Assembly: GCF_000377905.1 (NCBI RefSeq) | Contig: NZ_KB898871.1 | Span: 407,001 to 471,000, forward strand | DNA: 64,000 nt | Direction of reading: 5' to 3' | Origin: Thioalkalivibrio sp. ALMg11 | GTDB taxonomy: Bacteria > Pseudomonadota > Gammaproteobacteria > Ectothiorhodospirales > Ectothiorhodospiraceae | Shown here: one piece after another, positions 33,148 through 43,933 of the stretch | How the letters are laid out: each line of letters begins with the position of its first letter | Numbering within the stretch: the stretch's first letter is position 1 | Translations under genes and position numbers: made by a program | The notes under the pieces: generated by a model | Told to the model about the DNA's origin: nothing | The model's input: only the letters and a program-made list of their open reading frames with translations | Databases searched by the model: none

Positions 33148-33223
33148 GCCGGTGTAGCTCAGTTGGTAGAGCAATCGATTCGTAATCGATAGGTCGGAGG
33201 TTCGACTCCTCTCGCCGGCACCA
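33148..33223 (+). tRNA. tRNA-Thr (anticodon CGT), probable ICE attachment gene
   Basis: A 76-base cloverleaf with encoded CCA. Acceptor GCCGGTG/CGCCGGC, D arm GCTCAGTTGGTAGAGC, anticodon arm ATCGA-TTCGTAA-TCGAT (anticodon CGT), T arm GGAGG-TTCGACT-CCTCT. The ICE integrase gene begins 265 bases beyond its 3' end, the usual arrangement when a tRNA 3' end serves as att site. The second att copy would lie beyond the window. Confidence 0.94.
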
Positions 33224-33487: not shown

Positions 33488-34417
33488 CTAGGATCGGCCC
33501 GGTTGGGGGAGGTGGTCAACCAGCTGGCGCAGCTGCCCCATATCGGGTTCCACGTATTGCATCGTAGTCGATAGGTTGGTGTGTCCCAGCAAGTGCTGCA
33601 GCGCGCGAAGCGGAGGGTTCTCCTGACGCCCCACCTCGGTCCCCAGCGTATGCCGGAGACGGTGCGGCGAAATGGGCTGACCCAAGACCTCGCTCAGCTT
33701 CCGGAAAAAGCCGCTGACCTGCTCAACGCGAATGCCCTTCCCCTGGTAGCGAGCTTCGCCCCGATGCAGGCCCAGGTCGAACACTTGCGAGTGCTCAAGG
33801 CCCCGAGGCCCGCGGAGCGCGATGGTCCTGTCATACAGTTCCCGCAATGGCTCAAGCAAGGGCGCTGGAACCGGAATATCCCACTCGCGGTGGGTCTTCG
33901 ATCCCGCCACCGATAGCCGCAGTACGTTCTGATTCCAGCACACGTCGCCCCACGTCAGCGCCACCAGTTGCCGCCTCCGCATGCCGGTGTAGTAGAAGGT
34001 GAGCAGCACTACGAGCCAGAACCAGCGGGGCTCAAGGCAACGATTCTCGGAATCATCGAGCGCCGCGATCGCCTGATCCAGAAGGTCGCGCGAAACGGTC
34101 TTGATCCGGCGATCTTCAGGCGCCGCGTCGACCCGTTCCAGGGGGTCATGGCTGATCCATTCCGCTTCCATGGCGAAGCGCCACATCGCGCGGAAATGGC
34201 GACGGTAGTAGTTCCAGGTCGTCGCGCGGGCGCGCTGCAGGACCTGGCTGCGCCATTCCAGCAGCGTGTCGCGCTGAATCTCGTCCAGCGTCCTGACGCC
34301 CATGTCGTTTTGAAACTGTCGAACAACCTGTTGGTAGCGGATGGCGGTATCGGGCCGCAAGATCCGCTCGCGCAGATAGATCTGCACCAGGTCGTCGAGG
34401 GTGCGGTGGGTTTCCAT
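33488..34417 (-). CDS. Tyrosine recombinase, ICE integrase
   Basis: A 309-residue site-specific recombinase. An N-terminal SAM-like core-binding domain (about 5-95, LVQIYLRERILRPDTAIRYQQVV) is followed by the catalytic domain with Arg in FYYTGMRRRQLVALTWGDV, Lys in VAGSKTHREWDIPVP, His-x-x-Arg in ISPHRLRHTLGTE, His in LLGHTNLSTT and the nucleophile Tyr in MQYVEP. It should insert and excise the element at the neighbouring tRNA-Thr. I prefer ATG 34417 because GGGGAGG lies only 2 bases before ATG 34426 but 10 before 34417. No excisionase gene is obvious beside it. Confidence 0.9.
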   Translation of the reverse strand: METHRTLDDLVQIYLRERILRPDTAIRYQQVVRQFQNDMGVRTLDEIQRDTLLEWRSQVLQRARATTWNYYRRHFRAMWRFAMEAEWISHDPLERVDAAPEDRRIKTVSRDLLDQAIAALDDSENRCLEPRWFWLVVLLTFYYTGMRRRQLVALTWGDVCWNQNVLRLSVAGSKTHREWDIPVPAPLLEPLRELYDRTIALRGPRGLEHSQVFDLGLHRGEARYQGKGIRVEQVSGFFRKLSEVLGQPISPHRLRHTLGTEVGRQENPPLRALQHLLGHTNLSTTMQYVEPDMGQLRQLVDHLPQPGRS

Positions 34418-34530
34418 CGCGGGCATGGCCTCCCCTGTAACGGGTTCAAGTCACGCCCCTGGCATCACTGAAGTTAGCACACGGGCTCCCTGCCAGGCGC
34501 GCGTCCTCACGAATCCAGCAGTGAAACCGC

Positions 34531-34842
34531 CTACTCCGTTTGCGATGGAGCCGAAATTTCCTGGGAGGATTGACGTCGTTCCCGCAACGCTTCGCGCACG
34601 ATCTCCACGCTCTCGGGGGCCTCGATGCCGAGGCGCGCCTTGCGATGGTCGACGTACTCCATACGGACGGGGCCGTCCGGGTGGTGAAGGGTGATCCGGC
34701 TGCCTGGGGTATCCCACTCGACATTGAGACCGGGCGCGCATGCCGACAGTCGAAGTGGTGCTTCCTGGGTCTGCACCGCGACCACGAGGGCGCTATCCCC
34801 CACGTACAGTGCTTCCCCGTCCTTCAGGGTCAAAACCAACAT
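34531..34842 (-). CDS. CsrA/RsmA-family RNA-binding regulator with a ~39-residue insertion
   Basis: A 103-residue protein. Residues 1-16 (MLVLTLKDGEALYVGD) and 60-90 (VRMEYVDHRKARLGIEAPESVEIVREALRERR) align with the first and second halves of CsrA, and Arg83 takes the place of E. coli Arg44. Between them, about residues 17-55, sits an insertion with its own strand-like pattern (NVEWDTPGSRITLHHPDG). The RNA-contact pair Arg6-Arg7 is Leu-Lys here. CsrA binds GGA-bearing leaders to control translation; ICE-borne paralogues (CsrT of Legionella) control element and host traits. Its own leader holds several GGA motifs. Confidence 0.78.
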   Translation of the reverse strand: MLVLTLKDGEALYVGDSALVVAVQTQEAPLRLSACAPGLNVEWDTPGSRITLHHPDGPVRMEYVDHRKARLGIEAPESVEIVREALRERRQSSQEISAPSQTE

Positions 34843-34868
34843 TCCTTTTCCTCCTCCTTGCTTCCTTG
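34843..34868 (-). promoter_or_regulatory. GGA-rich leader of the CsrA-like gene
   Basis: Directly upstream of the start the minus strand reads AAGGAAGCAAGGAGGAGG then AAAAGGA before TG: five GGA triplets in about 25 bases, overlapping the ribosome site. GGA is the CsrA-family core target, so self-repression is a fair inference. Confidence 0.55.
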
Positions 34869-34891
34869 CCCGTTTGCCAGCTCCCTCTGTA

Positions 34892-34955
34892 TTTCTTCCG
34901 AATATTCGATTGTTATGATTCCGGAAGAAACTGCGGAGAATATTCCGTTATTGCT
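34892..34955. repeat. Inverted repeats and two GAATATTC palindromes upstream of the CsrA-like gene
   Basis: TTTCTTCCG (34892-34900) and CGGAAGAAA (34932-34940) are perfect 9-bp inverted arms. GAATATTC occurs at 34900-34907 (extended to CGAATATTCG) and again at 34948-34955. The interval is AT-rich and lies between the relaxase stop and the CsrA-like gene, so it is a likely regulated promoter. Confidence 0.5.
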
Positions 34956-34997
34956 CCCGTGTCACACGCCCGTAACTATCCGGGCAAGACGGCTGGC

Positions 34998-36839
34998 TTA
35001 CGCTTCGGCGGCGGGTGTCAGGTGGTCGTTGGGTGAGGGTATCCAGTCCGGGCCGAAGACAACGGAGGTGTCACGGATCAGGAGACCGTTGATACGGCTG
35101 GTCTGGCGCTCGCCCCGCACCACATAGCGATGGATGTTGGTGCCTTCGGAGGACTTCTCGTGCAGCTGTAACCGCTGAAAGCGCTTCTGGGCAGCGTTCC
35201 ACGTGTGGCCCGTCGCATTCGCAAAGTCGCGGAAGATCCCGGGACTAATGAGAAGCACGCCCTCGGGGACGACGTGGATCCGGGCCTCTCGCGTGTTCAC
35301 CAGGAGCGACCCGTCCGCGACACCTCGTCGGATCCATTCGAGACAGGCATCCCCCGGGTCTTCAGGCAAGGGGGCGTCCGCACCCGAATCGCAGGATGCC
35401 GTCGACTGCGGCGGTGGCTCGGCCGTCGGCTCGTCAGTGGCTTCATCCAGGACGCCGTCGAGCCCCGGAGGGAGCGGCAGATCGTCAACACCGCCGGATA
35501 CGGGCGGGCAGTGGGGTGAGTGACGTTCCTCCACCTCGTCAGACTGACCTGTCTGGATTACGACGGTCCTCGCCGTGGGCGGATCTGCCGCAGGGGCGGC
35601 CGGCTCTTCAGGTGAAGAGCGGCTTGGCGATCTGTCGCCAGACTCCGTTGTCCCCTCGGCCGATGCCTCGCCAAGCGGAGTCACGGTACCCTCGAACACC
35701 ATCGGCATCGCATCAGGATCGGACCAAATGCGGGCCACCGGCAGGCGGATGAGAGTCAGCTCGTGCGACCAGCCGTCACTGGCAACCCGGGCCCTCCAGA
35801 TGGCGCGGTCCCCGTTGGCGGTCAGCAATCCGTGCTCCTGCAGTGTGTCGAAGATCCGGTCGTTGTTTGAAGGAATGCCGGAATGCCCCTCCTCGCGGAG
35901 GTGTGCCCGCAGCGCGTCGGCTGCGCGCTTCGACACTAGCCACAGATCCGACTCCGTGCGCCAGCCTGCCGCCCCATTGCGGTTCAGCGGCAGATCTTCG
36001 CTGCTCAATAGGTGTCGAAGCGATGTCATCAACTTCTCGTGAAGCGGCTTCGTAGGCGTGGGCAGTCGGTCCGGTGATTCGCCGCCCAGGTTCCGCGCCA
36101 CCGACTCCCGGTCGGCCTGCAGGATGATCTGTCCCAGCGCCCCCGCATCCTCCAACTGCCCGTGGATTGCATGGATCCACGCCTGCAGTAGTTCCTGGTG
36201 TTTAGCTATCCAGGACATGCCTTCCGGCGGTAGGACCCAATGCGCGACGAGACTGGATGCTGGTTCGTGGAGTTTGTGAACGCGACCGCGCCTGTACCGC
36301 ACGGAATACCAGTGCGCACCCGGTCGCTCGATCATCGGTCCGTGCCAGGGTTCCCAGCGCCCCAGGCGGTTGCCCAAGGCGCCGTACACGGCGATCTCCT
36401 GGTCGACGACGGGTTTGCCCACATCGTGCAGCAGAGCGGCGGAGAAGACGCCGTAGGACCAGGCGTCCGCTTCATGGGAAAGCCGTTCAGTTTCGGCCCC
36501 GGGTGGCAGGAGGTACCCCCGGCGGATCTGCAACGCCTTGAGCGCGACCTCGAGTCCGTGGTCGAGCATGCCCCCTCGGCTGGAGTGGTGGTGAACCTCG
36601 GACGCGGGCACTTCCTGGACGAATGCCGCGTACCGGCGCAGGCTGGCAACGACATATCGTTCGGAGCACTCCGACGGGAGCGCGAGAAGGCCGGTGATCT
36701 GGCGCAGTAGTGACCTGCGGTGGGGTGGCTGCAGCAGCTCTTCCGCGGTCTCGACCGGCAGCAGGCCAGCCTTCGGCGGTGTCTCCTGCCGACTGGCATG
36801 TGCTGTAGCAGGCGGCTTGCGACGGAGAAACGGCAGCAT
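34998..36839 (-). CDS. MobH-family conjugative relaxase (TraI_2 type)
   Basis: A 613-residue relaxase that should nick the ICE at oriT and pilot the strand. The N-terminal TraI_2 domain (about 30-330) has the histidine-rich metal motif VHHHSSRGGMLDHGLEVAL and the HD-like LLHDVGKPVVDQE, marks of MobH. A Pro/Glu/Asp-rich disordered linker (about 400-500) leads to a C-terminal DUF1528-like winged domain (GVLLISPGIFRDFANATG...QKRFQRLQLHEKS). Start 36839 (MLPFLRRKPP) matches relatives; the longer frame to 36959 lacks support. It shares strand with the integrase. Confidence 0.86.
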   Translation of the reverse strand: MLPFLRRKPPATAHASRQETPPKAGLLPVETAEELLQPPHRRSLLRQITGLLALPSECSERYVVASLRRYAAFVQEVPASEVHHHSSRGGMLDHGLEVALKALQIRRGYLLPPGAETERLSHEADAWSYGVFSAALLHDVGKPVVDQEIAVYGALGNRLGRWEPWHGPMIERPGAHWYSVRYRRGRVHKLHEPASSLVAHWVLPPEGMSWIAKHQELLQAWIHAIHGQLEDAGALGQIILQADRESVARNLGGESPDRLPTPTKPLHEKLMTSLRHLLSSEDLPLNRNGAAGWRTESDLWLVSKRAADALRAHLREEGHSGIPSNNDRIFDTLQEHGLLTANGDRAIWRARVASDGWSHELTLIRLPVARIWSDPDAMPMVFEGTVTPLGEASAEGTTESGDRSPSRSSPEEPAAPAADPPTARTVVIQTGQSDEVEERHSPHCPPVSGGVDDLPLPPGLDGVLDEATDEPTAEPPPQSTASCDSGADAPLPEDPGDACLEWIRRGVADGSLLVNTREARIHVVPEGVLLISPGIFRDFANATGHTWNAAQKRFQRLQLHEKSSEGTNIHRYVVRGERQTSRINGLLIRDTSVVFGPDWIPSPNDHLTPAAEA

Positions 36840-37401
36840 GGAGGATCGTCTCGGGAAGTTGGTGACGTACCGTGCTAACCATGATGGATGTTGCCCGGCA
36901 CACTGTCCCCGAGAAAACCTCAGCGGGATCTTGAGAGTTTCCGACGCTGTTACGCGCAATGCCCGGCGCGGTTGAGTTCGCGCCGCGTCCCCACCTGATC
37001 CCAGCTTCCACGCCGGGATATTTGGGGATCAACGGGAGGGGATCGATGCCTTCGAGGCCAGCAGGGAACCGAGAGACTTCCTCCCAGGCGCCGAGCTCGC
37101 CATAGTCGCTGCCCCAAAACCGCCGCTGAATAGTCCTCCCATTCTCCGGTACTTCCGCGCCGCCCACGCTCAGTATTTGTGTCGCGTTTCCCCGTGCGCG
37201 CGGTCTCGCTCAGGAATGGCTGGATACCGCTTATTGCTGATATGCCTTTCGGCCGCCGCCCCGCCCACCAGGCGGCGCACGGTAGCAAGGAGCAATTACC
37301 GCGATCTGCGCCTGACGCCCGTTGTGTCAGGCGCTCCTTGGACGATTCGCGAGATTACAGTACATTGCCGTAACTTTGCAGCCACTCCGCGAAGACCTCG
37401 G
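36840..37401. other. Interval without an assigned gene; possible oriT region
   Basis: Between the relaxase and the ribbon-helix-helix gene lie 562 bases. A minus-strand frame (about 36850-37167, containing GLEGIDPLPLIPKYPGVEAGIRW) is unusually protein-like but has no family I know and would overlap the relaxase start. A perfect 9-bp inverted repeat lies at 37308-37334. MobH elements often hold oriT beside the relaxase gene, so this is where I would look for it. Confidence 0.3.
37308..37334. repeat. Inverted repeat upstream of the ribbon-helix-helix gene
   Basis: GCGCCTGAC and GTCAGGCGC flank a 9-base spacer, 68 bases before the RHH start. It could be an operator for that regulator, an oriT hairpin or a terminator lacking a T run. 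Confidence 0.4.
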
Positions 37402-37690: not shown

Positions 37691-40600
37691 ATGGAACCCG
37701 TGCCGATGACAAACCGAGAAAAATTTCAAGCGCTGCTGCGCGAGCTTTTTCAGTTCGACTGTGCGGACCTGGATTTCGGTATCTACCGCATCATGAATTA
37801 CAAGCGGGACGTGATCGAGAAGTTCATCTCGACCGACCTGCCCGAGCTGATTGGTGAGGAGCTGAATCGTGACGCCCTGGCCGATCAGTCACAAGCCGCA
37901 GCGGAGCTTGCCGAAACTGCGGAGGAGATTGCCAAAACGCTTGGTAAGGACGCTTTGGACGCCGATGGCAATCTTGTCCGGTTCCAAGGGACGGAAATCG
38001 GCAAGAAGTATCTGAGCTTGCAGGCGAAGGCAGCCGGCGGCCGTGGGTGCGAGGCGCTGGAGGCTACCATCTTCAATCACCTGTACACATTCTTCAGCCG
38101 CTACTACCAGGACGGTGATTTTATCTCCAAGCGCCGTTACTCCAGGCGACAGAAGTACGCCATCCCCTACAACGGCGAGGAAGTCTACCTGCACTGGGCC
38201 AACCAGGACCAGTACTACGTCAAGACCGCCGAGCATTTCCACGATTACACCTTTACGTCACAAGGCGTGACCGTGCACTTCAAGCTTACCGCCGCCAACG
38301 TCGAGCAGAACAATGTTAAGGGCGAGAAGCGGTTCTTCCTGCCCCGCGTCAAGAGCACCGACTGGCTGGAAGAGGCAAACGAGCTGGTCATTCCCTTCGA
38401 ATACCGGCCGCTGACCGACCAAGAGAAGGCTACCTACACGACGAAGAGCCAGCAGGAAAAAATCATCGCGGAGGCCTGTGAGGCCATTCCAGAGGCCCTG
38501 AAAAAGGCGAAAAAGGCTCTCTCCGCCATTATCGCCGAGCGTCGCAAGGACAGCGAAAACCGGCCGATCACGTTCCTGGAGCATCATCTACGGCAGTACA
38601 CCCGCAAGAACACGTCCGACTTCTTTATCCACAGGAACTTGAAGGTTTTCCTCTCGCGTGAGCTGGACTTCTATCTGAAGAACGAAGTGATGAGCCTGGA
38701 CGAAATTGAAGCCGCTGGCGAGGACCGCTCCGAGGGCTGGTTTCAGGTCTTGCGGGTGATCAAGGCCGTGGGCGGCCGGATTATCGACTTCCTCGACCAG
38801 ATCGAGTCATTCCAGAAAATGTTGTGGGAGAAGCGGAAATTCGTCACCGAGACCCAGTACTGCATCACGGCCAGCGCTATCGACGAAAGCTTTTACCCCG
38901 ACATCGCTGCGTGCGATGCCCAATGGGATGAATGGAAAGAACTTTTCCGCATTGGCGAGGAGCAGGCCGATCTCTTTACGAGTGACGAGAAGAAACAAGA
39001 ACGTCGTGTGGCGTTCCTGAAGGAACACCCGACGCTCGTAATCGACACCTCACATTTCGAGCAAAATTTCAATGACAAGTTGCTGGAGTCATTTGGCGAC
39101 CTTGATGATAATATCGATGGCATCATGTTACACAGCGAAAATTGGCAAGCACTCAATTTTATTGCCCCAAAATTTGGGAAACAAATTGAGTGCCAATACA
39201 TAGACCCAAACTACAATACCGAAAAAGATGTTTTCCCTTACAAGGATGGATACAAACGGTCCACGTGGCTGACAATGATGGAACAGCGCGTCCAGCTCGC
39301 TCGGCAGTTATTGAAAGATTATGGGTTCTTCTACTGTAGTATCGATGAACATGAAACATCTAGGCTCCGTGAGCTTGGGGAGAGGATTTTCGGTCAAGAA
39401 TGTTTTGCGGCTGAGCTTATCTGGAATACGCAGCATAGCCAGCAGAGCGGCCTCTTTACCCCCTATCATGAATATGTGCAAGTGTTTTGCACGCATTCAC
39501 CGAAAACGTATGAAAATTTTTCAGGAAAACCCGGGGAAATCGTCGCGGGTGCCATGAAGAAAGTTTCTAGCGCAAACCCGGCTAGCGATTTCGAATTCCC
39601 GGCCGGAACGCCGTGGTATGCCACGGACGGAAAAGAGCTTAAAGGGGAATGGGGCGACACTGAGGTCGTGAAATTGATTCAGGGCGAAATGATATGTGAG
39701 GCGCAAAAACTAAAATATCCAGTAACGCTGCGTGCAGGGTGGACTCAAAAGCGGCAAATGGAGAAATACTTCTCAGGCAAAAGGCCGGTTTTTGATTCAA
39801 AAGGGCAGGAAGTAACCGGATTTTACTTTAATGGTTCCGGGAAGTTGAAGATAACCAAGCAGCGTTCAAAATCAACCCCAAGCACGCTCTTGCCTCAGTT
39901 TGGTACCACATCCCAATCTACTGCGGCGCTCGAGCACGTTCTTGGGGAGGCTGTTTTTGGTCGACCAAAGCCTGTTTCAATGATTGAACACTTAGTATCT
40001 TTGTCTCTCCCGGAGGGTTCTGAGGGAACGGTCGCGGATTTTTTTGCTGGATCTGGGACAACTGGACACGCGGTTATAAATCTGAACCGCCGTGATGGGG
40101 GGCGACGCCGATTCATATTGGTTGAGATGGGCCAGTATTTTGACTCCGCTATTGTTCCGAGAATGAAAAAGGTGACCTTTGCACCAGAGTGGGATGGTGG
40201 CAAGCCTAGCCGCATGGCCACCGCCGAAGAGGCCGATCGCAGCCCGCGTATCGTTAAGTTTATCCGTTTGGAGTCGTACGAAGACGCCCTGAATAACATC
40301 AAGTTCCACGAAGTCTCCAGCGGGGCGGCGCTAGAGTTTGACGATTACCTTCTCAAGTACATGCTGGCTTGGGAGAGTCGCCATAGCGAAACGCTCCTGA
40401 ACGTCGAGCAGCTCGCCAAGCCGTTCAGCTATAAGCTCACCGTCGCCAAGGGCGATGAAACCATCGAAAGGACGGTCGATATACCCGAGACCTTCAACTT
40501 CCTGCTCGGCCTGCACGTCAGCAGACGCAAGGTGTGCGACGATGAGGGGCGCCGATACCTGGTCTATCAAGGCCACATTGACCATCGACGCATCGCGGTT

Positions 40601-40783
40601 ATCTGGCGTGAGATGGAGAGCTGGCAAAAGAACGACCTAGAGCGAGACAAGGAATTCGTCGCTGAACAGAAGCTCGCCGAAGGTGCGGATGAGGTGTTCG
40701 TCAATGGCGACTCGTTTATCCCGAACGCCAAGGCTCTTGAGCCTGTGTTCAAGGCTCGGATGTTCGCGCCGGTGGAGGCGTAA
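37691..40783 (+). CDS. Type III-like DNA adenine methyltransferase (Mod), large form
   Basis: A 1030-residue beta-class methyltransferase. Motif IV is at 505-510 and reads DPNYNT rather than DPPYNT; the target-recognition region follows (about 520-760); motif I is ADFFAGSGTTGHA at 782-794, with ILVEMGQYF after it. Residues 1-450 are a long, mostly helical extension absent from short Mod proteins, and 840-1030 form another domain. Bases about 39055-40190, the whole catalytic core, are clearly more AT-rich and use different codons from the rest. With the helicase/nuclease gene 3 bases downstream it forms a restriction-modification pair that should methylate adenine in a short asymmetric site. 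Confidence 0.85.
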   Translation: MEPVPMTNREKFQALLRELFQFDCADLDFGIYRIMNYKRDVIEKFISTDLPELIGEELNRDALADQSQAAAELAETAEEIAKTLGKDALDADGNLVRFQGTEIGKKYLSLQAKAAGGRGCEALEATIFNHLYTFFSRYYQDGDFISKRRYSRRQKYAIPYNGEEVYLHWANQDQYYVKTAEHFHDYTFTSQGVTVHFKLTAANVEQNNVKGEKRFFLPRVKSTDWLEEANELVIPFEYRPLTDQEKATYTTKSQQEKIIAEACEAIPEALKKAKKALSAIIAERRKDSENRPITFLEHHLRQYTRKNTSDFFIHRNLKVFLSRELDFYLKNEVMSLDEIEAAGEDRSEGWFQVLRVIKAVGGRIIDFLDQIESFQKMLWEKRKFVTETQYCITASAIDESFYPDIAACDAQWDEWKELFRIGEEQADLFTSDEKKQERRVAFLKEHPTLVIDTSHFEQNFNDKLLESFGDLDDNIDGIMLHSENWQALNFIAPKFGKQIECQYIDPNYNTEKDVFPYKDGYKRSTWLTMMEQRVQLARQLLKDYGFFYCSIDEHETSRLRELGERIFGQECFAAELIWNTQHSQQSGLFTPYHEYVQVFCTHSPKTYENFSGKPGEIVAGAMKKVSSANPASDFEFPAGTPWYATDGKELKGEWGDTEVVKLIQGEMICEAQKLKYPVTLRAGWTQKRQMEKYFSGKRPVFDSKGQEVTGFYFNGSGKLKITKQRSKSTPSTLLPQFGTTSQSTAALEHVLGEAVFGRPKPVSMIEHLVSLSLPEGSEGTVADFFAGSGTTGHAVINLNRRDGGRRRFILVEMGQYFDSAIVPRMKKVTFAPEWDGGKPSRMATAEEADRSPRIVKFIRLESYEDALNNIKFHEVSSGAALEFDDYLLKYMLAWESRHSETLLNVEQLAKPFSYKLTVAKGDETIERTVDIPETFNFLLGLHVSRRKVCDDEGRRYLVYQGHIDHRRIAVIWREMESWQKNDLERDKEFVAEQKLAEGADEVFVNGDSFIPNAKALEPVFKARMFAPVEA
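39055..40190 (+). other. AT-rich island inside the methyltransferase gene
   Basis: Over about 1.1 kb, codons such as AAA, AAT, ATA, TTT and GAA replace the GC-ending codons used before and after, with no break in frame. The island covers motif IV, the recognition region and motif I. It looks like a domain-sized replacement by homologous exchange. Borders are by eye. Confidence 0.6.
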
Positions 40784-40786
40784 CCC

Positions 40787-43700
40787 ATGTCCCAGGGACG
40801 AAACGCCAAACCGGAGTACGTTAAGCTGGAACAACGGCTGGTGCTGCTGACCTGGCTGAACAGCCTGTTCGGTTATGAAAGCAACCGTCATCTGCTGGCT
40901 GACCTGCGCGAGGCTGGCGAGGGTTTTGACGCCAGCGGCCGCAGTTACGTGTGCCACCGGCTCATTGCCCGCGGTGACAAGGTCCAAATCACGACCGCAG
41001 ACCTAGCGCGGTACGACGACAACATCCGTGAGCACCTGGGCGCGATGAATGCGCGTCGGTCGGATCCAATCACGCTTCGATACTTCCAGCATCTGGCGTT
41101 GCTCTACACGGAGATATTCCTCGATGGCTATTTCAATTATCGGGAAGCGCGTCTGCGGTCTCTGAACGAATTCGTGGCGAAGCGGAATCTCTCCAAGAAC
41201 TCCGGAGAGGTGAAGGACGCCAGGTTCAGTGAAACCGACCTCAAGAAGCTGGCGTACTGGATGGCAACCGGCAGCGGCAAGACGTTGATCATGCATATCA
41301 ACTATCGGCAGTTCCTGCGATACAACAACTCGCCGCTAGACAATATCGTGCTGATCACGCCGAACGAGGGGCTGAGCGAGCAGCACATCGAGGAGATGAC
41401 GGCATCCAATATCCCCTGCCGCCGGTTCGACCTCAATGAAAGCGGCTTGGGAATCTCCGAGCCCGATGCCGTGCGCGTCATCGAGATCACGAAACTGGTG
41501 GAAGAGAAGCGCGGTGGTGGTCAGAGCGTGCCCGTCGAGGCCTTCGAGGGCAACAACTTGATCTTTGTCGATGAAGGCCACAAGGGTTCGGGCGGCGAGG
41601 CATGGCGCAGCTTTCGCGACGCGCTGGGGCAGACCGGATTTACCTTCGAGTACAGTGCGACTTTCGGTCAGGCCCTGACGGCGGCTCGGAATGACAAGCT
41701 GACCGAAGAGTACGGTAAGGGCATAGTATTCGACTACTCCTACCGGTACTTCCACGGCGACGGATACGGGAAGGACTTCCGTATCCTCAACCTGAAGGAA
41801 GAAGCGGTCGAGGACAAAACCGAGATGCTGCTGTTGGGGAACCTGCTGTCGTTCTACGAGCAGCAGCGGGTTTTCGAGGAAGGTGGCGAGGCATTACGGC
41901 CGTACAACCTGGAAAAACCGCTCTGGGTGTTCGTCGGCAGCAGCGTGAATGCTGTCTATACCGAGAACAAGCAAAAACGCAGTGACGTGCTGACCGTCGC
42001 CCGCTTCCTGCATCACCTGCTGGAGAACAAGAAGGGCTGGGCGGTCAAGGCGATCAAAATGCTGCTCGATGGGAAGACCGGCCTGGAGGGGGACCCGGAC
42101 GGACAGGACATCTTTGCCGAGAAGTTCCAGTACCTGAAAGATGCCGGCATCGATGCGGAGACGGCCTACCATGAGCTGCTGGGAAAAGTCCTGCACTCGC
42201 CCACAGGCGGCGGCCTGCATCTGTGCGATCTGCGGGGCAGTCCCGGCGAACTGGGGCTAAAGGCCAGTGGGGGCGAATATTTCGGTCTGATCTATATCGG
42301 CGATACCAGCGCCTTCAAAAAGCTGGTGGAGGTGGATGACGCCGGCATCACTGTCGAGGAAGATGCGATTGCCGATTCGCTTTTTGAGGGCATCAACGAG
42401 CCGGAGACGAGCGTCGAAATATTAATTGGCGCTAAGAAGTTCATGGAGGGGTGGAACTCCTGGCGCGTCTCCAATATGGGGTTGCTCAACATTGGCCGGA
42501 AGGAAGGCTCGGAAATCATCCAGCTTTTCGGGCGCGGCGTGCGACTACGGGGCAAGGACTTCACGCTAAAGCGAAGTTCTGCGCTCGACGGCAGCCATCC
42601 CGAGCATTTGCCGGTGCTGGAGACGCTCAACATCTTTGCGGTCCGTGCGAATTACATGCCCCAGTTTCAGGAGCACCTGGAGAAAGAAGGTGTCGAGACA
42701 GAAGGCCACGTCGAGCTTTCACTGCCGATCCGGACGAACGATGACTTTCTAAGACAGGGTCTGGTCGTACCGCGCATTCCGGACGACCGAAGCTTCGCCG
42801 ACGAAGCCGCCGTGCTTCTGGATGTCGATCCGGCGATTCGTGTGCGCGTCGATATGTCGCTCAAGGTGCAGACGTTCGAAAGCGGGGTCGACGGTTTTAC
42901 CGCAGCCGCAGTGAAGGCCGGTTGCGAGAGGGCCGTTCCCGACGCGAGCCTGAATCTTGTGGACTGGGAGCGCGTCTACCTGGAGCTCCTGGAGTACAAA
43001 GAGCGGAAAGGCATGCGCAACCTGGCCATCCGCCCCGATTTGCCGCGAGCCATCTTTGATAAGAAGGAGCCATCCCGTCTATACAGCGTGGTTGCTGATG
43101 ATAACGTCGTTCAGCCGGTCTCCTTCGCTGGAACCGCATTGCTTCACGAAGCTGTCCTGACGGTCCTGAGAAAGTACACAGATAAGTTCTATCGCGTGCA
43201 GCAAGAGCGATGGGACTCGGAGAATATGGTCTACAAGGCTCTGGGTATCGAGGACTCGAACTTCCAGGACTACATCGTCAAGGTCCCCAGAGGCGACGTG
43301 ACTCTGATCGGAGCCATTCAGAAACTGATCGACGATGCCGATAGCATCTACGGCCAAGATTTGACCCGCTTGCCGACGATCCACTTCGACCGTCACCTGT
43401 ATCAGCCGCTGTTGATCGAGCGAGGCAACAAGGTGCGAAGCGATCCGCCCGGTCTCAAGGCGAGTGAACGGCAATTTGTCGATGACCTACGTGCCTACTG
43501 CCGCGCGGAGCGGGACGGCGCCCTTGCGTATGCCGAAGTTTACCTGTTGCGGAACCTGAGCCGAGGCAAGGGGATCGGCTTCTTCGAGACGCGAGGCTTC
43601 TACCCAGACTTTATCCTCTGGATCAAGACCGCCCATCAGCAACGCATCGTGTTCGTGGAACCCCACGGGATGCTCCGAGCCGAAGCTTATAAACACGACG

Positions 43701-43933
43701 ACAAGGCGCGACTGCACGAATCGCTCCCGAAATTGGCGAAGGCCATGTGCACGCGGACGAACATGACTGATGTCGTCCTCGATTCGTTCATCGTCTCCGC
43801 GACAACGTTCGATGATCTGCGCACCAAGTACGACGACGGGGGCTGGGATAAGGACAGGTTCGCGTTGGCGCATATCCTGTTTCCGGTACGGGACAACGAC
43901 TACGACTACATCAGACGCATCGTCGAGGGATAG
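40787..43933 (+). CDS. Type III-like restriction subunit (Res): SF2 helicase with C-terminal nuclease domain
   Basis: A 1048-residue ATP-dependent translocase/nuclease. Walker A is MATGSGKT (159-166), motif II is DEGH (262-265), and motif III is SAT (about 290); motif VI is IIQLFGRGVRLRGKD. A long middle region leads to a C-terminal domain with GFYPDFILWI (P940-D941) and VFVEPHGM (E958-P-H960), the layout of a PD-(D/E)xK nuclease but with His where Lys is usual. Cleavage would depend on the site specificity of the upstream methyltransferase, whose stop lies 3 bases before this start. The pair is likely phage or plasmid defence carried as ICE cargo. Confidence 0.84.
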   Translation: MSQGRNAKPEYVKLEQRLVLLTWLNSLFGYESNRHLLADLREAGEGFDASGRSYVCHRLIARGDKVQITTADLARYDDNIREHLGAMNARRSDPITLRYFQHLALLYTEIFLDGYFNYREARLRSLNEFVAKRNLSKNSGEVKDARFSETDLKKLAYWMATGSGKTLIMHINYRQFLRYNNSPLDNIVLITPNEGLSEQHIEEMTASNIPCRRFDLNESGLGISEPDAVRVIEITKLVEEKRGGGQSVPVEAFEGNNLIFVDEGHKGSGGEAWRSFRDALGQTGFTFEYSATFGQALTAARNDKLTEEYGKGIVFDYSYRYFHGDGYGKDFRILNLKEEAVEDKTEMLLLGNLLSFYEQQRVFEEGGEALRPYNLEKPLWVFVGSSVNAVYTENKQKRSDVLTVARFLHHLLENKKGWAVKAIKMLLDGKTGLEGDPDGQDIFAEKFQYLKDAGIDAETAYHELLGKVLHSPTGGGLHLCDLRGSPGELGLKASGGEYFGLIYIGDTSAFKKLVEVDDAGITVEEDAIADSLFEGINEPETSVEILIGAKKFMEGWNSWRVSNMGLLNIGRKEGSEIIQLFGRGVRLRGKDFTLKRSSALDGSHPEHLPVLETLNIFAVRANYMPQFQEHLEKEGVETEGHVELSLPIRTNDDFLRQGLVVPRIPDDRSFADEAAVLLDVDPAIRVRVDMSLKVQTFESGVDGFTAAAVKAGCERAVPDASLNLVDWERVYLELLEYKERKGMRNLAIRPDLPRAIFDKKEPSRLYSVVADDNVVQPVSFAGTALLHEAVLTVLRKYTDKFYRVQQERWDSENMVYKALGIEDSNFQDYIVKVPRGDVTLIGAIQKLIDDADSIYGQDLTRLPTIHFDRHLYQPLLIERGNKVRSDPPGLKASERQFVDDLRAYCRAERDGALAYAEVYLLRNLSRGKGIGFFETRGFYPDFILWIKTAHQQRIVFVEPHGMLRAEAYKHDDKARLHESLPKLAKAMCTRTNMTDVVLDSFIVSATTFDDLRTKYDDGGWDKDRFALAHILFPVRDNDYDYIRRIVEG

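Follow-up and report, generated by a model that had tools for sequence, protein, structure and literature searches.

A probable compact tandem CsrA encoded between the integrase and relaxase genes of a Thioalkalivibrio ICE

In the 64,000-nucleotide stretch of Thioalkalivibrio sp. ALMg11 DNA analysed here (the window), an ICE carries a gene whose product, P0002 (103 codons, all intact; N-terminus MLVLTLKDGE), resembles CsrA at both ends and holds about 39 extra residues in between. The usual working form of CsrA is a swapped homodimer in which two RNA sites are present, and the question raised by this locus is what the lengthened chain makes of that arrangement. The original prediction had taken the extra residues as an insertion that splits the hairpin of a single CsrA. 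Membership of the CsrA family is not in doubt and the gene is a genuine one: the Pfam model PF02599 matches P0002 in two stretches with 44.9 bits (E 1.1e-11) against a gathering score of 27, bearing out the predicted similarity at both protein ends, whereas the NCBIfam csrA equivalogs, which describe the standard CsrA, stay below their cut-offs (36.5 bits against 73 and 34 against 70.1). The host genome (3.04 Mb in 18 contigs) has a separate, ordinary csrA on contig C6 (88.7 bits), and copies of P0002 at 93-97% identity are present in Thioalkalivibrio sp. ALE14, T. halophilus HL17 and Thioalkalivibrio sp. ALJ16.

The position of the gene is as first described, between the genes for a tyrosine integrase (PF00589) and a MobH relaxase (NF041494) on an ICE with conjugation genes (Table 1). 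It begins 155 bases after the end of the upstream mobH gene and ends 104 bases before the start of the integrase gene downstream, all three on the minus strand. Identical 27-base repeats lie at contig positions 440197-440223 and 491726-491752, and beyond the tRNA-Thr 3' end itself the genome holds one further exact copy; the ICE is about 51.5 kb long, because the 27-base tRNA-Thr end recurs at 491726-491752 and these att repeats bound it. MobH, TraD, a TraC-type ATPase, a tyrosine integrase and direct att repeats at a tRNA gene are all found, which makes it an ICE of the PFGI-1/TOL kind, and 7 of the 10 ORFs tested in the conjugation region match named families. In the three relatives named above the DNA match runs from the neighbouring chromosome through the integrase gene and the tandem csrA into mobH and stops at 36767-36779, so that the place between integrase and relaxase is kept in four of four genomes. 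Among the cargo (window 37691-43933), an N6_N4_Mtase DNA methylase gene adjoins a ResIII-type helicase gene in a restriction-modification-like arrangement.

Table 1. Features of the csrA-like gene and its ICE (window coordinates)
Feature	Position	Strand	Basis
Probable compact tandem (double) CsrA gene, 103 aa	34531..34842	-	Pfam, profile, family alignment, AlphaFold2, dN/dS
CsrA copy 1, residues 1-47: beta1-beta5, without helix; Leu4 retained, Arg44 without an equivalent Arg	34702..34842	-	Ungapped to CsrA profile 1-37; model strands
CsrA copy 2, residues 48-96: beta2-beta5 and C-terminal helix, without beta1; Arg83 = Arg44	34555..34701	-	Single sequence to CsrA 25-52, family profile 11-53; model
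Leader, possibly an autoregulatory target; five GGA, three of them ANGGA, within 40 bases upstream of the start codon	34843..34882	-	GGA count
ICE tyrosine integrase	33488..34426	-	PF00589, E 8e-21
MobH relaxase	34998..36959	-	NF041494, 350.2 bits against cut-off 200
ICE attachment repeat = 3' end of tRNA-Thr gene (gene 33148-33223)	33197..33223	+	Identical 27-base second copy outside the window
ICE conjugation genes: TraC-type ATPase, TraD coupling protein, TIGR03749, TIGR03752, TIGR03755, TIGR03759, TIGR03765	46681..63843	-	

If the extra block were an insertion, P0002 would be a single CsrA with a 39-residue subdomain between its first strands and the VRxGV strand and would pair into an ordinary homodimer that has two RNA sites; when P0002 and single CsrAs are put into a general multiple alignment, a gap of about 39 columns does open there. 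The block, however, follows on in register with CsrA positions 17-37, after which positions 11-27 come a second time. A profile built from single CsrAs aligns P0002 residues 1-37 without gaps to its positions 1-37 (15.9 bits) and residues 64-91 to positions 25-52 (22.4 bits), so positions 25-37 are used twice, by residues 25-37 and again by residues 64-76; in the genome search the Pfam model likewise matched at profile positions 1-37 and 25-51 (20.3 and 24.4 bits, each alone below 27). When a family of seven Thioalkalivibrio sequences was used in place of P0002, its two halves separately matched CsrA with E 1e-13 (CsrA 1-37) and 5e-14 (CsrA 11-53), and within the middle of the protein residues 17-47 alone aligned to CsrA 17-37 and residues 48-66 alone to CsrA 11-27. 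The scores of these two middle parts were equalled by none of 150 column-permuted controls, and the same was true of both parts in an 11-sequence set to which plasmid and phage members had been added.

With nothing but the four near-identical ICE copies as input, the middle falls short of significance (the score is reached by 139 and 133 of the 150 controls), so the tandem reading rests on the relatives. Shuffle tests with P0002 alone gave p 3.5e-4 for residues 17-37 and p 0.012 for residues 17-45 when the register was fixed, and were not significant for the best match in any register (p 0.39). Compared with each other by hhalign the two copies are barely alike, the probability being 0.1% from the ICE copies, 10% from seven sequences and 61% from eleven. 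One relative is a protein from another Thioalkalivibrio genome (L017), 39% identical to P0002 residues 1-90, in which two CsrA domains both exceed the Pfam cut-off (29.1 and 53 bits, profile positions 1-40 and 11-50) within 99 aa of an open frame of 105 aa; two such clear domains again argue against an insertion. Of the original description, then, the roughly 39 additional residues stand, and their reading as an insertion that divides the hairpin of one CsrA does not, positions 25-37 being matched twice; an ICE-borne CsrA variant next to an integrase and a relaxase is likewise upheld, its inserted form is not. The block reads instead as the end of one CsrA copy followed by the start of a second, degenerate copy, and P0002 probably consists of two CsrA units in a single fused chain, which would recreate the greater part of the domain-swapped dimer.

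Structure prediction with AlphaFold2 from the four near-identical ICE copies failed (pLDDT 40.5). A second input combined these copies with 15 single viral CsrAs, whose rows are nearly empty at residues 27-65, and gave five models with pLDDT 81.3, 80.1, 75.2, 64.4 and 62.6 (best pTM 0.70). In the best model strands are predicted at residues 2-5, 11-14, 18-25, 28-35, 40-45, 49-54, 57-65, 70-74 and 81-83 and a helix at 84-96, an order that can be read as beta1-beta5 of one CsrA and then beta2-beta5-alpha of another; the beta1-beta5-alpha fold thus appears in this second model, though not in the failed job with close copies, as two copies of which the second has no beta1. Nine strands in CsrA order also speak against the insertion, a reading that we consider quite improbable and have rejected on the double profile coverage and the relatives. 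The original prediction was to fall if no CsrA fold was predicted or if homologues lacked the two CsrA halves; strand order in the model is of the CsrA type and the halves are there in homologues. Searched against solved structures the model gave no match at E <= 0.001, and the CsrA-family chains among the best 50 matches align over 37-45 columns at 2.0-2.6 Å with one exception (101 columns, 9.2 Å). Among predicted viral proteins the top match is an 88-aa protein aligned over 88 columns (E 4.7e-4, 4.3 Å) and the second is a 114-residue phage 'carbon storage regulator' (E 3.5e-3, 12.3 Å).

Weak matches to RsmF/RsmN chains (E 0.036 and 0.041, residues 39-87) bring in a further alternative, a rearranged CsrA of the RsmN/RsmF type. 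Like P0002, RsmN/RsmF of Pseudomonas aeruginosa is related to CsrA and has a longer chain that follows a different topological route. Its beta2 and beta3 are separated by a helical insert of 16 residues, and it lacks a C-terminal helix (PMC3791407, in part), whereas in P0002 strands 11-14 and 18-25 are joined by a three-residue link, strands are predicted for the extra block and the model places a C-terminal helix at 84-96. RsmN, moreover, is built as a homodimer, its single units each having the inserted helix and binding one RNA hairpin (PMC3791407, in part), unlike P0002. As the kind and the place of the extra block differ, an RsmN-like rearrangement was rejected, and we give it hardly any credence.

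For the tandem reading the consequence lies in the RNA-binding surface. In RsmA one sheet has the order beta5A-beta2B-beta3B-beta4B-beta1A and has a counterpart sheet (PMC3791407, in part); in CsrA each RNA surface combines beta1 of one monomer with beta5 of the other, L4 and R44 are critical for binding, and full repression of glgC by CsrA requires both RNA sites (PMC7652899, in part). In P0002 beta5 of copy 1 would lead through a tight turn into beta2 of copy 2, and since these strands are neighbours in the normal dimer sheet the helix of copy 1 and beta1 of copy 2 would be dispensable without breaking the sheet, leaving nine strands and one helix. One RNA surface would be kept, made of beta1 of copy 1 (Leu4) and beta5 of copy 2 (Val79, Ile81 and Arg83), and the other would be lost with the absent beta1 of copy 2 and a beta5 of copy 1 that has no Arg44. 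Arg83 does occupy the place of Arg44, as had been proposed, and together with Leu4 it forms the Leu4/Arg44 surface once per chain instead of twice per dimer. Eight aligned compact tandems from five groups have six invariant columns, which include copy 1 Leu4 and the copy 2 Arg44 equivalent, while Arg at position 44 of copy 1 occurs in none of the compact tandems (alignments by eye; the phage protein has Arg at 43 and 45). Apparently, a single predicted RNA-binding site remains in the chain.

The kept surface is itself altered. Leu6, Lys7 and Glu77 replace basic residues, and Ala85 replaces the acidic partner of position 6, by our own mapping from RsmN numbering (PMC3791407, in part); these changes of the basic RNA surface mean that binding may be weak. 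Leu6-Lys7 in place of Arg6-Arg7, already pointed out in the original prediction, the correspondence of Leu6 and Ala85 to the Arg8-Glu64 salt-bridge pair of RsmN (PMC3791407, in part) and Glu77 in a basic position could also speak for a compact tandem that has given up RNA binding and works by contacting proteins, for instance by serving as a decoy to the partners of CsrA. The retention of Leu4, Arg70, Val79, Ile81 and Arg83, and the invariance of the Leu4 and Arg83 equivalents across the eight aligned compact tandems, tell against such a decoy, which we regard as unlikely. Loss of the second RNA site, and the weak scores of the two halves (15.9 and 22.4 bits), might also be taken as signs of a decaying, functionless relic carried by the ICE. 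Six pairwise comparisons among the four Thioalkalivibrio genomes gave dN/dS of 0.08-0.19, however, and the gene is under purifying selection; its place between integrase and relaxase genes is conserved in all four, as is the ribosome-binding leader among the ICE copies. A pseudogene was rejected on the dN/dS values and a relic seems to us very improbable.

Returning to the two fused units as a one-site protein, we would expect the chain to fold as a single pseudo-dimer that is paired from the outset, to bind one GGA site without bridging two, and not to exchange subunits with the host CsrA, in contrast to RsmQ (PMC9928087, in part). Its likely role is to regulate translation through one site, with its own GGA-rich leader as target and perhaps the adjoining mobility genes as well. 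The five GGA of the leader are the highest count among 37 likely window genes (a hand-picked set; next highest 3, mean 1.0), the other three ICE copies have 5, 7 and 6, and ordinary csrA leaders from 25 genomes have 1 or 2. The GGA run of P0002 overlaps an ordinary ribosome-binding site. Seven compact tandems counted outside the ICE have 0 to 3 GGA, so a GGA-rich leader is not common to them, and autoregulation through this putative target, a fair guess, is limited to the ICE form. Leader folding is slightly better than that of shuffled sequences (z -2.1; 7 of 200 shuffles were equally good). An inverted repeat, TTTCTTCCG...CGGAAGAAA, lies in the leader (window 34843-34960); it was set aside as evidence because it is absent from two of the four ICE copies. 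Rfam found two tRNAs only in the window and no Csr/Rsm sRNA above the gathering score. Regulation of transfer or of host physiology, as first suggested, is plausible, and going by gene position alone the integrase or the relaxase is perhaps controlled.

The compact tandem form is rare in the genomes sampled. When 96 relatives were searched with P0002, 5 genomes matched at E 0.001. Of 47 genomes of the order, 5 gave full-length matches to a first compact-tandem profile, at 7 places in total, and 12 more of these genomes matched over the second half alone and were taken from that coverage as ordinary CsrAs. A second profile matched at full length in 2 of 369 genomes of the class sample (G000 and G022), with 56 others matched over the second half only, and in the phylum sample 1 of 398 genomes, the window's own, passes E 1e-11; it should be noted that at most 11 or 12 candidates were scored per genome in these class and phylum scans, so rare or divergent forms can be missed. 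With P0002 as query nothing was found among plasmids and phages at E 0.1, the relatives there being reached through L017. Scans of viral contigs with P0002, vsMR, P0007 and L061 found none; those with L017, P0003, L107 and L090 gave loci, some of which were used as single CsrAs.

L017 itself is apparently a transposon-borne compact tandem, lying 48 bases behind tniQ and after genes matching Mu-transpos_C, TniB and TniQ (L051:4924-10064), of which the first is read as TniA-like from the Mu-transpos_C match. On plasmids, full-length relatives of P0005 occur in 14 of 101 matching records, its own included (13 Xanthomonas and 1 Stenotrophomonas; two records are from one strain, 85-10, and the protein sequence was read in three of the 14). 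These proteins, annotated 'carbon storage regulator' (for example WP_041854964 and WP_227415728), are 34-36% identical to L017 and are compact tandems like P0002, copy 1 containing LTRK and copy 2 VHREE; unlike P0002, their copy 1 matches the profile just to position 29-32 and their leader has no GGA. On a Xanthomonas citri plasmid (L094:3001-3634) an ordinary csrA follows the compact tandem csrA after 103 bases. The record of Pseudomonas phage vsMR, which is without annotation and flagged as unverified, holds one full-length relative. A more divergent pair, L060 and L061 (L061:942-2508, L060:266-514), encodes an 83-aa CsrA-like double whose second half is too weak for a profile match; in L061 the gene comes immediately after one for a DEAD-box RNA helicase, and an overlapping locus, L018, shows by eye a helicase-like frame ahead of it. 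In Vibrio phage V-YDF132, residues 45-88 of a hypothetical protein (L095:1417-1893) form a CsrA-like half, which, judged by eye, may be preceded by a degenerate copy. Longer, linker-containing tandems of 135-144 aa occur in G000, G016 and G020 (loci L054:4122-4547, minus; L053:3808-4239, minus; L052:851-1255, plus); in the G000 and G020 proteins (L054 and L053) both copies seem by eye to keep Arg44, and these could possibly be a two-site single-chain form.

Compared with CsrA/RsmA (PF02599), a domain-swapped homodimer, P0002 is alike in its fold units and in bringing Leu4 and Arg44 onto one surface; it differs in having two copies per chain, with copy 2 lacking beta1 and copy 1 lacking the helix and Arg44, and in having one predicted RNA site instead of two. 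CsrT, a CsrA paralogue on Legionella ICEs (PMC7366521, in part), resembles P0002 in its ICE location. RsmQ of plasmid pQBR103 is, like P0002, a CsrA-family regulator on a conjugative element, and it affects transfer under some conditions (PMC9928087, in part). RsmQ pairs with itself and with the host RsmA and RsmE (PMC9928087, in part), which a pre-paired P0002 chain would not be expected to do. No natural tandem or single-chain CsrA is described among the matches listed from the open-access literature (titles and abstract openings), and the word 'tandem' is absent from the available part of a survey of CsrA in Pseudomonas and mobile elements (PMC7366521).

As a tentative suggestion, to which we give somewhat less than even weight, mobile elements may repeatedly have taken up a CsrA with one chain and one site, in which a beta5-beta2' hairpin makes the closure; with neither exchange with host CsrA nor bridging of two sites, it would serve the element as an insulated translational switch for integration and transfer genes. 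If this is true, mobile elements would gain a CsrA that does not mix with that of the host, the family would show a route from a domain-swapped dimer to a monomer, and a natural one-chain, one-site CsrA would be a ready tool for separating binding from bridging.
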